Shown here in pieces: positions 30,832-43,034 of a stretch of DNA of 64,000 bases. The stretch is from Rhodomicrobium lacus (GTDB lineage: Bacteria > Pseudomonadota > Alphaproteobacteria > Rhizobiales > Rhodomicrobiaceae), in NCBI RefSeq assembly GCF_003992725.1, contig NZ_RZNF01000007.1, positions 1 to 64,000 of the forward strand, written 5' to 3'. The notes under the pieces were generated by a model. That model made no database searches, had not been told where the DNA came from, and was given only the letters and a program-made list of their open reading frames with translations. Position 1 is the stretch's first letter, and each line of letters opens with the position of its first letter. The translations under genes and the position numbers were made by a program.

Positions 30832-33800
30832 TCAAACGGCTGAGGCGGGTTGCTGGGTGTGCTCATCGCAGGGGATCGCGCCCGGCACAGACAGTCCGGA
30901 GCCCCCCTCAAGGCCGCGCCCGACCGAAACGCCACCGCTGTTCGTTTCAAGAACCGGCAGGCGCTTCAGCGTGTGCGCCCGAGGAACGGGCGAGGCCGGA
31001 ATCCCTACCGAATACGATCCCTGCGCAAGCGTTTCCCCTTTCATCAGCACCGACAATGGCCCAAGAACGGCGCCCTTTTCCATGGAGGTACTGTAAAGCA
31101 CGATAGCCATATTCCCGACGGTGCATCCCTCACCGATCACGAGCTTGTCCGCCTTCATCACGCGATCTTCGAAAAGATGCGTCTGGACGGTCGCGCCAAG
31201 ATTGAGAGCCGCATGATCGTGGATCTCCACGAGGTCAAATTCCGAGAACAGGGTTGTGTGCACGAACACCCAGCGGCCCACCTTGCAGCCGAATAATCCG
31301 AGGCAGTGCCCTGCATAGGGCGTTCCGAGAACCGGCTCCATGACGTTGGCCGCAAGCGACTCGAACACGCCGTTTATCACCTCGGTAAACCACACATAGC
31401 TCGACCATAGAGGCTTGATAACGGGATGAAACGTCCCGCGCAGCACCAGCTTGACCGCAGCGGAGACGAACAGCAACCCCATCGCCGACGCAAGGGACAG
31501 AAGCGGCGTGAAAAGGACCGTTTCTTCGAGTGCGTGCGTGTTGCGAATGGCGATCAGCGCATAGCAGAATGCGACAAGGGCCGCGCCGGAAAGCCATCCC
31601 GGAAGGCAGATGCGGAGGAAGTCGACGCAGGCGCGCGCGAGCACCATCGAACGTGGCGGCTCGTAAGTCTTTGAGGGCGCGAAAGCGAAAGACTGCTGGA
31701 CCGCAGACGGAGGCAATTCGAAGCCCGGCGAGCCAAGCCAGCGGCGGTTGGCTTCCAGCGGCGCTTTCGTCTGGGGCGGTGTCGACAGCACGCCGACGAG
31801 ACTATCGTCGCCGATCGTTGTGCCCCCGGGGACGAAGGCGCTGTTGCCGACGAAGGTCTGCTCGCCGATGTTCACCGCCTCGATCGACAACACGCCGCCA
31901 TGGATGCGACCGCCGCCGATGATGCAGGCATCGGCGAGAAAGCTGCCGCGCTTTACGGTGAGAAGGTCGGGACTGAACTGCATCACCGTCGAAACCTCGA
32001 CGCCCTTGCCAATCCTCGACCCGAACAGGCGGAGTACGGCCGGAAAGAACAGCGTGGCGTAAAGCGGCTGAAGGATTTCACGCGTGTTGTTCAGAAGGTA
32101 GCTGAGGAACCAGTGCCGCAGATAGGTCAGACTGCGCACAGGGTAAGTGCCCTGCCGTATCCTCCCCAGTATAATGCGCTTTGTCAGCACGGCGCAGGCG
32201 ATGTACCACAGCACACCGAGCGGCACCGCGACGAGAAGAGCGCCAGCGCCAGCGTATAGCCCATAATTGATGAGGGCGATGGCCACGAGTGCGATAGGCG
32301 GGAGCAGCGCCACGATCAGAAAATAGCCCATCAGATAGATCAGGACGAGATGGATCAGCCCCCACAGCCTCTCGCCGCCGCGGGGCGCCGTGTTGCCGGT
32401 CGGCAGACTGAAGTCGGCATGGACGGCAGGCACGCCGCGCCACTTCTCATCGGCTCGAAGGCGTGCGCCATCGGCGAGGAAAGACATGTCGTCGAGCGCG
32501 GAACCTGCCGCCATTTCGACGTCGAGACCAAGCGCGCAGTGCTGTCCGATGAAGCAGCGTTCGCCGATGGTGAGAGGGGCGATTATGAGCATCCCGTCTT
32601 CCACGCGGCAGGCAAGCAATTGCGTTTCGGCGCCGATGCAAGCGCCGTCGCCGATCGTGACGAGATCGAAGGCCGTGCAATGCGCCGTTCCGATGACGCA
32701 ATTCCTGCCGACACGCGCGCCCATGGCACGATAATAAAGGCTCATGAGCGGCGAGCCCGCGAACATGGGTGCCCAGCTCAGCCTCTGAAACTTGCCAACA
32801 AACCACCAGCGAAAATAATACAAGCTCCAAAGCGGGTAACGGCCGGGCTTGTATCTGCCGATCACCAGCCATTTCGAAAGGATGCTCAATAACAGCATGG
32901 ACGGCCAGATCAGGAACCCGGCCGCGCTCAGGATCAGCGCAGCATGCTCGGCAGTGGTCGTGCCTTCATAAGCCGATTTCAGAACGAGCACGGTCAGCGT
33001 TACAGGCGCGCTGAGGACGAGATAATATAAGCCGACTGAAAGCGTCTGCAGCCCCACGCAGAGCCAACGTTCCCAGGGTGGAACGAGCTTGAATGCGCGC
33101 AGGCTCGGCAGTTCATCTCGCTGGCCTCTGCCGGAACTCTCAACCCCTGCCGGCTGCTCATAGCCTTCGAGCGCCCCGGCAAGGGCTCGTATGGTTCGGT
33201 GCTGGTACAGGTGGCGCACCGACACGGAAGGCAGCCCGAGGCGTTCGCGCATTTCGGAGGCGACACGCGCCGCCAGCAGGGAATGGCCGCCGAGATCGAG
33301 GAAGAAATCGTCATCGACCGACACCGAAGGAGCGCCGAGGCACATTCCCCACACTTCGGCGATGGCGCGCTCAAAGTCCGTTTCAGGAGCTGCCATCTGG
33401 CGTTCGCCCTTCAGAAGCGTCTGCGGCAGCGGAAGCTGCTTGCGATCCACTTTGCCGCTCGTCATCAGCGGCAGCGCATCGATTACGTCCAGATACTTCG
33501 GAACCATGTATTCTGGCACACGGCGGCGCAGTAATTCCGCAAGCTCGGCGCGAATTTCGCCCGTGATCTCAGCGTTCGGCACGATAAAGGCGCCGAGTTC
33601 CCTGGAGCCGTTCAACTCGAAGACATTCACCGAAGCGGCAGCGACTCTCGGATGATCGAGAAGCACCGCTTCGATTTCCGGCAACTCGATCCTGAAGCCG
33701 CGAAGCTTGATCTGACCGTCGAGGCGCCCGAGGAAATAGAGTTCTCCGCGATGTCCGAGGCGCACCATATCGGATGTGCGGCAAAGCCGTCCGCGCTTGC

Positions 33801-34944
33801 CAGACAGACAGTCGGGCAGGAAGCGCTCGGCTGTCTGGCTCGCGCGGTTTATATAGCCGGGGGACACAGCCTCGCCGCCGATGTAAAGCTCACCTTCTTC
33901 GCCGGGCCGCACCGGTCTTCCGCTTTCATCGAGGACGTAAATCGAATAGCCGGGCATGGCCGTGCCGATGCTGACGGGCTGACCCTCTCGGCATTCAGCA
34001 AGCGTCGCCACCACCGTCGCCTCGGTCGGACCGTAAGTATTCAGCATACGACGGCCCGGCTTGGCCCATCGGGTGACGAGATCTGGCGGGCAAGCCTCGC
34101 CGCCGAGCACCAGAAGCCGCACGTTCGGCAGATCGCGCGGGATCATCGCGAGAAACGACGGCACGGTCGAGAAATAGGAGACGCCCTCCTGCTCGATGAA
34201 GTCGGCAGCGTCGGAAGGGGAGCGTCCGATATCCTCCGTCGGGACGACGAGCGTTGCACCCGTTGAAAAGGCAGCCCAGATTTCTTCGACGGACGCATCG
34301 AACGCCACCGAAAACCCTTGATAGATCCGGTCGCTTCTCTTCACGCCGTAACTGGCTTTCATCGCCTTGACGAAGGCAAGTGCATTTCTGTGCGTGATCT
34401 TCACGCCCTTCGGGCGCCCAGTCGAGCCCGAGGTGTAGATGGCATAGGCCGCACTTGTCTGCCGCACCTGAACCGGGACGAGGCAAGCGGCTCCGATGCG
34501 ACGGCGTGCGGCGCGCTCCTCATCGGCGTCGAGAAGCAGCCACTTGACGCTGTCGATCCTCTCCGCATTCTCACGCCCCAAGGTGCCTTCAGACAGGACC
34601 AACGACACGCGCGCGTCATCGCAGATATCGACAATTCGTTCAGCGGGAAATTTCGGGTCGAGCGGCACGTAACCGGCGCCCGCTTTCAAAATACCGAGGA
34701 TCGCGGCAAATAGATTTACCGACTTCCGGAAGTATATCCCGACGAGACTCCCCGGTTTAACGCCATTGTCGATGCAGCGGCGGGCAATTTTCGATGAGAG
34801 TCTGTCAAGCTGTGAATATGTAAGCGAAATGGAATCGCATTTTACGGCAACGCCGTGAGGCCACCTCTTCGCCTGCTGTTCGAACACGTGATGCAAAAGC
34901 ATCGGACTGCGCATGCGATCATGAAACAAACGTCTTCTCGCCAT
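30832..34944 (-). CDS. Pls/PosA-family single-module non-ribosomal peptide synthetase
   Basis: A 1370-residue protein. Residues 1-510 form an adenylation domain (A3 YTSGSTGRPKGV, A5 NTYGPTEATV, A7 RTSDMVRLG, A8 GRLDGQIKLRGFRIE, A10 Lys498); a carrier domain follows with Ser555 in LGGHSLLAA. The rest (about 640-1370) has several membrane helices and three left-handed beta-helix hexapeptide domains (GARVGRNCVIG, GSRIGKGVEVS, GCKVGRWVFVH regions). This is the architecture of epsilon-poly-lysine synthetase, which links amino acids without condensation or thioesterase domains. By my alignment the specificity residues are D, A, E, T, V, G, T, V, V, K (216, 217, 220, 260, 279, 281, 303, 311, 312, 498), suggesting a basic amino acid. 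ATG at 34944 has GGGAG upstream. Confidence 0.9.
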   Translation of the reverse strand: MARRRLFHDRMRSPMLLHHVFEQQAKRWPHGVAVKCDSISLTYSQLDRLSSKIARRCIDNGVKPGSLVGIYFRKSVNLFAAILGILKAGAGYVPLDPKFPAERIVDICDDARVSLVLSEGTLGRENAERIDSVKWLLLDADEERAARRRIGAACLVPVQVRQTSAAYAIYTSGSTGRPKGVKITHRNALAFVKAMKASYGVKRSDRIYQGFSVAFDASVEEIWAAFSTGATLVVPTEDIGRSPSDAADFIEQEGVSYFSTVPSFLAMIPRDLPNVRLLVLGGEACPPDLVTRWAKPGRRMLNTYGPTEATVVATLAECREGQPVSIGTAMPGYSIYVLDESGRPVRPGEEGELYIGGEAVSPGYINRASQTAERFLPDCLSGKRGRLCRTSDMVRLGHRGELYFLGRLDGQIKLRGFRIELPEIEAVLLDHPRVAAASVNVFELNGSRELGAFIVPNAEITGEIRAELAELLRRRVPEYMVPKYLDVIDALPLMTSGKVDRKQLPLPQTLLKGERQMAAPETDFERAIAEVWGMCLGAPSVSVDDDFFLDLGGHSLLAARVASEMRERLGLPSVSVRHLYQHRTIRALAGALEGYEQPAGVESSGRGQRDELPSLRAFKLVPPWERWLCVGLQTLSVGLYYLVLSAPVTLTVLVLKSAYEGTTTAEHAALILSAAGFLIWPSMLLLSILSKWLVIGRYKPGRYPLWSLYYFRWWFVGKFQRLSWAPMFAGSPLMSLYYRAMGARVGRNCVIGTAHCTAFDLVTIGDGACIGAETQLLACRVEDGMLIIAPLTIGERCFIGQHCALGLDVEMAAGSALDDMSFLADGARLRADEKWRGVPAVHADFSLPTGNTAPRGGERLWGLIHLVLIYLMGYFLIVALLPPIALVAIALINYGLYAGAGALLVAVPLGVLWYIACAVLTKRIILGRIRQGTYPVRSLTYLRHWFLSYLLNNTREILQPLYATLFFPAVLRLFGSRIGKGVEVSTVMQFSPDLLTVKRGSFLADACIIGGGRIHGGVLSIEAVNIGEQTFVGNSAFVPGGTTIGDDSLVGVLSTPPQTKAPLEANRRWLGSPGFELPPSAVQQSFAFAPSKTYEPPRSMVLARACVDFLRICLPGWLSGAALVAFCYALIAIRNTHALEETVLFTPLLSLASAMGLLFVSAAVKLVLRGTFHPVIKPLWSSYVWFTEVINGVFESLAANVMEPVLGTPYAGHCLGLFGCKVGRWVFVHTTLFSEFDLVEIHDHAALNLGATVQTHLFEDRVMKADKLVIGEGCTVGNMAIVLYSTSMEKGAVLGPLSVLMKGETLAQGSYSVGIPASPVPRAHTLKRLPVLETNSGGVSVGRGLEGGSGLSVPGAIPCDEHTQQPASAV

Positions 34945-41747: not shown

Positions 41748-42758
41748 TCACCCGAACGACTGCCGCCTCAGACTGTACTCGATCACATGCCCGAGGACAT
41801 CGGCCTGGCTGAGCCCGTGCTGCGAGGCCGCAAGGCAGATCGAGCCGCTGCGCCCGATATGACAGCAGATATTGAATTCGAGGAAGACGCGTCGTCCGGT
41901 CTCGGGATCGAAGCGGTAATCCATCCGGAAATAATCCATCGGGCCGGCGGCGCGCCACAGCGCGTCGACATCGTTGCGGAGAGCTTCCTCGACGTCGCCC
42001 GCCTCGAACATCTCATAGCCGAGCGGATCGCTGCGCTTGAGGTCTTCGGTGATGATGCCGCCAGCCTTGTCCGAGCGCGGACGCACGACGCCGAGCACGA
42101 GAGGACCGCCCGCGCTTCCCAGCGCCGGAACGGTGATATCGAGTCCGGGCGCATAGCCCTCGACGAGCACGGCCATGCCCCGCGCCATCAGCTTTGCCGC
42201 CACGCGCGCGGCGCCCGCCCAATCGTCCTGAATCGACTCGGCGCTGACGCCCTCGGATGCCGCGCCGAACCGCTGCTTGACGAAATACGGGCCGGGAAAG
42301 CCGGGGGGCGTTTCGAGCGCAGCCTCGTCGGCGTAGACCGCACCCTCGGAAACCGGAATGCCGATGGCCTTCGCCGCGAGCTTCGCAAGCCACTTGTCCT
42401 CGGCGAGAGCGCGAATGTTCGGTCGCGCGCCGACATAAGGGATGCGCAGATATTCGCAGAGCGACGGGATGAACACTTCGGGATTGTTGATCGGCATGCG
42501 GTTGTAGAGCGAGAAGACGATGTCGGTTTCGCCCTTCCCGGCGAGAAGCGCGAGCGGCTCGCTCGTGGTGCGGATGCGATAGCCGAGGTCGCGCAAGGTG
42601 CGGAACACGCGCGCGTAATAGCCCGGATAGCCGCCATCGCCTTCAAAGCCGCGCGCCGCGAAGTCCGGCTCAAGCGGCGCGTGACGTGCGATGAAAAGAA
42701 TGCGCGTTGACGGTGTCAGAGGGGGGACGAGCAGATGTTCGGAAATCGAAGGACGCAT
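41748..42758 (-). CDS. ATP-grasp ligase, D-alanine-D-alanine ligase-like
   Basis: This 336-residue protein has an N-terminal pre-ATP-grasp domain (ILFIARHAPLEPDFAARG) and an ATP-grasp fold with GPYFVKQRFGAASEGVS, an ATP loop, and a metal-binding end DPETGRRVFLEFNICCHIG. True Ddl enzymes have an EVNT-type motif with an aromatic/Met pocket, which is altered here, so this is probably another carboxylate-amine ligase; the substrate is unknown. ATG at 42758 has GGAGCC upstream; the frame continues further upstream without conservation. It is convergent with tlpA. Confidence 0.8.
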   Translation of the reverse strand: MRPSISEHLLVPPLTPSTRILFIARHAPLEPDFAARGFEGDGGYPGYYARVFRTLRDLGYRIRTTSEPLALLAGKGETDIVFSLYNRMPINNPEVFIPSLCEYLRIPYVGARPNIRALAEDKWLAKLAAKAIGIPVSEGAVYADEAALETPPGFPGPYFVKQRFGAASEGVSAESIQDDWAGAARVAAKLMARGMAVLVEGYAPGLDITVPALGSAGGPLVLGVVRPRSDKAGGIITEDLKRSDPLGYEMFEAGDVEEALRNDVDALWRAAGPMDYFRMDYRFDPETGRRVFLEFNICCHIGRSGSICLAASQHGLSQADVLGHVIEYSLRRQSFG

Positions 42759-43034
42759 GAGAGGCTCCGTTCGGGGGCGGCCTGCCCGGAGAAAACACCG
42801 TCCGAAGGCAGACGATCGACTCGATGAGAAAATAATCCGTTTCGCTAAACAATTCGAATGCTCTCGCAGCGAGGCCGGCTTTCGAGGGAGCGAGTTTCTG
42901 CTGACTTCTCCGTGAGCAGGCTCCTGTCGCATGGCTGCACCCGCTTTTGCGGATCGTTCGGCTCGACTGACGCTGTAACCGGATTTGTGCCGGGGCGGAT
43001 GAACGAAGCCGGGAGCGCGCCGAGGTTTGCGGGC

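Follow-up and report, generated by a model that had tools for sequence, protein, structure and literature searches.

A Pls/PosA-family synthetase with a lysine-type specificity code in the genome of Rhodomicrobium lacus

Known cationic homo-poly(amino acids) (CHPAs) came from actinomycetes until the delta-poly-L-ornithine synthetase PosA of Acinetobacter baumannii was described (PMC10522769). That study also noted, by genome mining, lysine-type codes across many genera of bacteria, as well as family members in Alphaproteobacteria (among them rhizobia and Methylobacterium, with the code DLEDIGTV[TVI]K), and it cites an epsilon-poly-L-beta-lysine synthetase from Streptoalloteichus hindustanus that was itself discovered through an aminomutase neighbour (PMC10522769). 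The epsilon-poly-L-lysine synthetase Pls is represented by PDB entry 7wew. We analyzed a stretch of 64,000 nucleotides from Rhodomicrobium lacus (contig NZ_RZNF01000007.1, positions 1 to 64,000; hereafter the window), in which a first-pass annotation, made from the sequence, had placed a relative of these enzymes; its open reading frame, strand and coordinates (30832-34944) were correct. This gene probably encodes a CHPA synthetase using L-alpha-lysine.

The protein belongs to the Pls/PosA family, as the annotation had suggested: NCBIfam TIGR02353 ('Pls/PosA family non-ribosomal peptide synthetase', NRPS_term_dom) matched residues 633-1317 with 530.4 bits (curated cut-off, 423.1 bits). A Pfam scan of the single adenylation-carrier (A-T) module and the region behind it returned AMP-binding (residues 21-364), its C-terminal domain (423-498), PP-binding (528-592) and hexapeptide-type families only; classical condensation and thioesterase domains are absent. 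It is the sole Pls/PosA-type gene of its genome, the other matches there being confined to the A or the carrier region. The membrane region and three left-handed beta-helix domains already seen in the first reading were supported by hydropathy (three hydrophobic pairs at residues about 628-696, 859-927 and 1109-1169), by hexapeptide matches falling in three regions of the terminal domain, and by an AlphaFold model of that domain built with 17 sequences (mean pLDDT 88.9, pTM 0.89), in which each of three pairs of long helices precedes a left-handed beta-helix. The same layout of transmembrane (TM) pairs and beta-helices has been described for the membrane domain of PosA (PMC10522769), and the whole architecture is shared with Pls. 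Foldseek against the PDB gave partial hexapeptide acyltransferase matches only, none with E <= 0.001, so that the PDB lacks a close solved counterpart of the full terminal-domain fold. In two sequence searches of the PDB, the alignments among the matches listed were all to linear gramicidin synthetase.

The gene is under purifying selection, with a ratio of nonsynonymous to synonymous substitution rates (dN/dS) of 0.14 against two congeners. Compared with 93 homologues, the protein departs at two of 92 strongly conserved columns, and nearly every conserved column of the adenylation domain is intact. A chance open reading frame or a pseudogene was ruled out by the dN/dS and these columns. The ATG start at 34944 is preceded by GGGAG, other possible starts being TTG 35055 and ATG 34911, and a promoter scan upstream of the gene gave weak plus-strand matches only.

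The specificity code was read by alignment to a solved lysine-type A domain (PDB 7wew). With positions numbered as we take them to run in PheA, the aligned columns gave D216, A217, E220, T260, V279, G281, T303, V311, V312 and K498, that is DAETVGTVVK, exactly the code first read by eye; the convention of the PosA paper, which uses the residue one upstream at position 4, gives S there and thus DAESVGTVVK. The 7wew sequence ('Epsilon-poly-L-lysine synthase', matched at 654 bits by the actinobacterial homologue L237) is 42% identical to the window A domain over 461 residues and has DAETIGTVVK in the same columns; nine of the ten residues are shared, the exception being position 5, with V in the window enzyme and I in 7wew. 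The 7wew code recurs in all 24 sampled actinobacterial homologues of the 7wew clade, and it is closer to the window code than the bacitracin-type code on which the lysine-like assignment had originally been based. D216 and E220 (code positions 1 and 3) are each conserved in at least 95% of the 93 homologues. Structures and mutants of PosA showed that D and E at these positions are essential and that position 2 sets substrate length, with Ala for lysine, Met for ornithine and Phe for diaminopropionate or diaminobutyrate (Dap/Dab) (PMC10522769). The window enzyme, with D, A and E at positions 1-3, fits lysine under these rules, and the code points to lysine as the most probable monomer. PosA, which uses ornithine, has the same D, E and T in its pocket as the window enzyme, but its code has Met, Asn and Ser at positions 2, 5 and 9. 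We take PDB entries 8g95-8g98 to be PosA.

In the mechanism that we propose, the adenylation domain would make lysyl-AMP, with D216 holding the alpha-amino group, E220 and T303 holding the side-chain amine, and A217 leaving room for the C6 chain. A phosphopantetheinyl transferase (PPTase), probably the one on contig C3 of the window's genome (G000:C3), would arm the carrier domain, which would take up lysine as a thioester. The membrane domain, with its three TM pairs and three beta-helices, would then link lysines via their epsilon-amines, in isopeptide bonds, to give short epsilon-poly-lysine at the inner membrane. PPTase genes are present in the window's genome, and in congeners they adjoin the synthetase. 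A poly-lysine product from an alphaproteobacterium is thereby predicted.

The synthetase of R. udaipurense JA643 is 87% identical to the window protein. Two tree programs placed the window protein among Hyphomicrobiales proteins that are 50-53% identical over most of their length and carry the codes DAET[IV]GTVVK; they come from Hyphomicrobium sp. NDB2Meth4, Hyphomicrobiaceae bacterium SB17 (two copies), SZAS metagenome-assembled genomes (MAGs) and a Xanthobacteraceae MAG. Sister to this clade, with full support, were seven DGET[VI]SVVNK proteins from Planctomycetota, Myxococcota, Bdellovibrionota, Pilimelia and one alphaproteobacterial genome of the window's order. Contrary to the kinship with characterized Pls considered in the first-pass annotation, the actinobacterial Pls proteins formed a separate deep clade, and membership of Pls in the strict actinobacterial sense was ruled out by the trees and an approximately unbiased (AU) test; the window's host, unlike theirs, is Gram-negative. 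The lysine code is therefore shared without close kinship. It is found in several deep lineages (Actinomycetota, Bacteroidota, Verrucomicrobiota and the genomes of L269/L270), a distribution that would fit an old or recurrent state, the root of the tree not being fixed.

The alphaproteobacterial synthetases of rhizobia and Methylobacterium also belong to the family but have Leu at position 2 and fall in another clade (L069, L076-L082). A clade with Leu at position 2 (L069, L076-L082, L092-L096, L267) had the code DLET[IL]G[ST]VVK, which is of the type that PMC10522769 gives for rhizobia and Methylobacterium, and some members have an adjoining PPTase.

The window locus itself is bare because its partner cassette sits on another contig. 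In congeners, a PPTase, a tetratricopeptide repeat (TPR) protein, a BcsS-family outer-membrane protein (PF17036) and an M23-family protein adjoin the synthetase. The window's genome carries the M23-type, BcsS-type barrel, TPR and PPTase genes, 63-85% identical, at G000:C3 about 338645-342067 (L182:6645-10091). From the synthetase through leuC the window is collinear with the R. udaipurense locus (86.6% DNA identity), which divides cleanly between the cassette site and the window; compared with R. udaipurense and a second congener (G001), there is a rearrangement breakpoint between the PPTase and the synthetase. The remark in the first-pass annotation that no transporter or regulator was visible thus holds locally, but the partner genes of the relatives do exist elsewhere in the genome. 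PPTase adjacency is common across the family. By contrast, profile searches of homologue loci found M23 and BcsS genes both lying no more than about 5 kb from the synthetase in seven of eight window-clade members, the window left out (positive, L071, L072, L100, L101, L102, L103 and L111; negative, L104), and together at no other family locus examined. Gene order varies among these loci, so the association is not simply unbroken synteny. Among five Rhodomicrobium genomes, BcsS and M23 occur in the three that have the synthetase and are both absent from the two that do not, one of the latter being only 88% complete. The partner pair is a new lead. It stays together in seven of eight relatives although gene order varies, and in the window's strain it has moved to a different contig. 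It is conceivable, though we hold this only tentatively, that Rhodomicrobium, Hyphomicrobium and relatives make poly-lysine through a Gram-negative system equipped with an envelope module of its own, in which the periplasmic M23-type protein and the BcsS-type outer-membrane barrel, as conserved partners of the synthetase, would carry the polycation across the outer membrane or tie it there.

Two observations concern these partners. The M23-type proteins (L071:5022-5879, the copy L182:6645-7616 in the window's genome, and their relatives) retain HSGVD/HTG[IV]D and a later His, but have ExH (PEVHWE) where HxH is usual; judged by these motifs they may be peptidases of altered function or else serve in binding. 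Hyphomicrobiaceae bacterium SB17 has two diverged lysine-code synthetases (L100, L104), with the M23/BcsS pair beside one only.

The position of the sister clade raises the question of whether the window enzyme uses L-beta-lysine and makes epsilon-poly-beta-lysine, since the code of that clade, written DGESISVVNK, has been tied to this polymer (PMC10522769). We regard this as highly improbable. The window code differs from it at four clade-distinguishing positions (A/G at 2, G/S at 6, T/V at 7 and V/N at 9). Three of the seven synthetases with the beta-lysine code (L068, L110, L137) have as a neighbour a radical S-adenosylmethionine (radical-SAM) gene that either carries the C-terminal domain of lysine-2,3-aminomutase or is closely homologous to such a gene; the L109 genome has a 51% aminomutase homologue away from the synthetase, none was found in the L112 genome, and in the L108 genome both genes are at contig ends, where adjacency cannot be judged. 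By contrast, the lysine 2,3-aminomutase family (TIGR00238) had no match in the three Rhodomicrobium genomes with the synthetase (G000, the window's own, G001 and G002), whereas nine of 14 control genomes matched, and no aminomutase was found near any sampled window-clade member. Its absence from the genome favours alpha-lysine, and with the differing code it ruled out beta-lysine as the leading substrate. Another diamino acid (ornithine, Dab, Dap or diaminopimelate) or arginine is likewise an unlikely substrate. PosA binds lysine too, so that pockets overlap (PMC10522769), and code position 5 differs from that of Pls; however, ornithine-type members are marked by M and N at code positions 2 and 5 (DMExNGTVxK), and those of the Dap/Dab type by F at position 2. 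The first-pass annotation correctly placed lysA, a consumer of diaminopimelate, 2.3 kb from the synthetase across leuC, but lysA was not found near the synthetase in Rhodomicrobium congeners and was dropped as a functional neighbour.

Lysine might also be activated but loaded onto another acceptor, such as peptidoglycan, lipid or a surface glycan, or joined into very short oligomers only, the enzyme then being an envelope modifier and not the source of a free secreted polymer. The accompanying periplasmic M23-type protein and BcsS-type barrel, both missing from the two Rhodomicrobium genomes without the synthetase, would suit such a role, as would the hexapeptide left-handed beta-helix, which is an acyltransferase fold. 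The characterized family members named in PMC10522769, however, make free homopolymers, and no acceptor is known; we consider this reading rather unlikely. Several points weigh against an L-alpha-lysine CHPA synthetase as well. At position 9 the window enzyme has V, as does Pls, whereas the residue there in PosA is Ser313, an important one. Code-based prediction can fail, as with a Bdellovibrionales family member that was only modestly active, with arginine (PMC10522769). Identity to actinobacterial Pls-clade members is about 26-30% in the polymerization domain, and a clade uniting the window and Pls groups was rejected (p-AU 2.7e-66, in a test run after a tree had been viewed, on a grouping that the first-pass annotation had also named in its account of what would refute it). 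Neither a regulator nor an exporter adjoins the synthetase, and the literature that we found shows no such polymer from an alphaproteobacterium. For Rhodomicrobium, literature searches turned up nothing on polylysine or nonribosomal peptides.

If true, a lysine-using enzyme in a phototrophic alphaproteobacterium would extend poly-lysine making to Gram-negative bacteria and raise the question of how a polycation leaves the cell without outer-membrane damage. The two sister clades, one of alpha-lysine code and the other of beta-lysine code with neighbouring aminomutase genes, lend themselves naturally to examining how the pocket picks between the two lysines.

Table 1 Coordinates in the window of the synthetase gene and the features within it.
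Feature	Coordinates	Strand	Evidence
Pls/PosA-family single-module nonribosomal peptide synthetase (NRPS; A-T-membrane polymerization domain), 1370 aa plus stop	30832..34944	-	family and domain profiles
Adenylation domain, residues 17-504	33433..34896	-	PF00501 1.5e-82, PF13193
Stretch with the ten specificity-code residues D216 ... K498	33451..34299	-	alignments; 7wew same columns
Carrier (T) domain, LGGHSLL with Ser555	33169..33363	-	PF00550 8.3e-12; S555 conserved
TIGR02353 terminal polymerization domain	30994..33048	-	profile score; AlphaFold pLDDT 88.9
TM helix pair 1	32860..33078	-	hydropathy, AlphaFold
Left-handed beta-helix 1, approximate limits	32413..32715	-	hexapeptide matches, AlphaFold
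TM helix pair 2	32167..32373	-	hydropathy, AlphaFold
Left-handed beta-helix 2, approximate limits	31723..32019	-	hexapeptide matches, AlphaFold
TM helix pair 3	31441..31653	-	hydropathy, AlphaFold
Left-handed beta-helix 3, approximate limits	30991..31287	-	family-conserved Q1254, H1256, M1301, G1314; hexapeptide matches, AlphaFold

An AAT-family gene (PF03417, penicillin acyltransferase type) adjoins beta-lysine-code synthetases (L068:6256-7293, L108:5376-6359, L110:7878-8909) and might encode an enzyme that tailors or degrades poly-beta-lysine. At two loci an aminomutase-like radical-SAM gene (L083:12742-13860, L098:14070-15536) lies 1-3 kb away from a synthetase whose code, DFECLGTVTK, resembles the Dap/Dab type. 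The window's genome also has a separate NRPS locus (G000:C2, about 4-13 kb), where a second adenylation-domain gene, 28% identical to the A domain, has its own PPTase nearby. Elsewhere in the window, 41748-42932 on the minus strand encodes a 394-aa protein with no Pfam match and weak similarity to D-Ala-D-Ala ligase (47 bits, cut-off 243), possibly an unusual ATP-grasp ligase.

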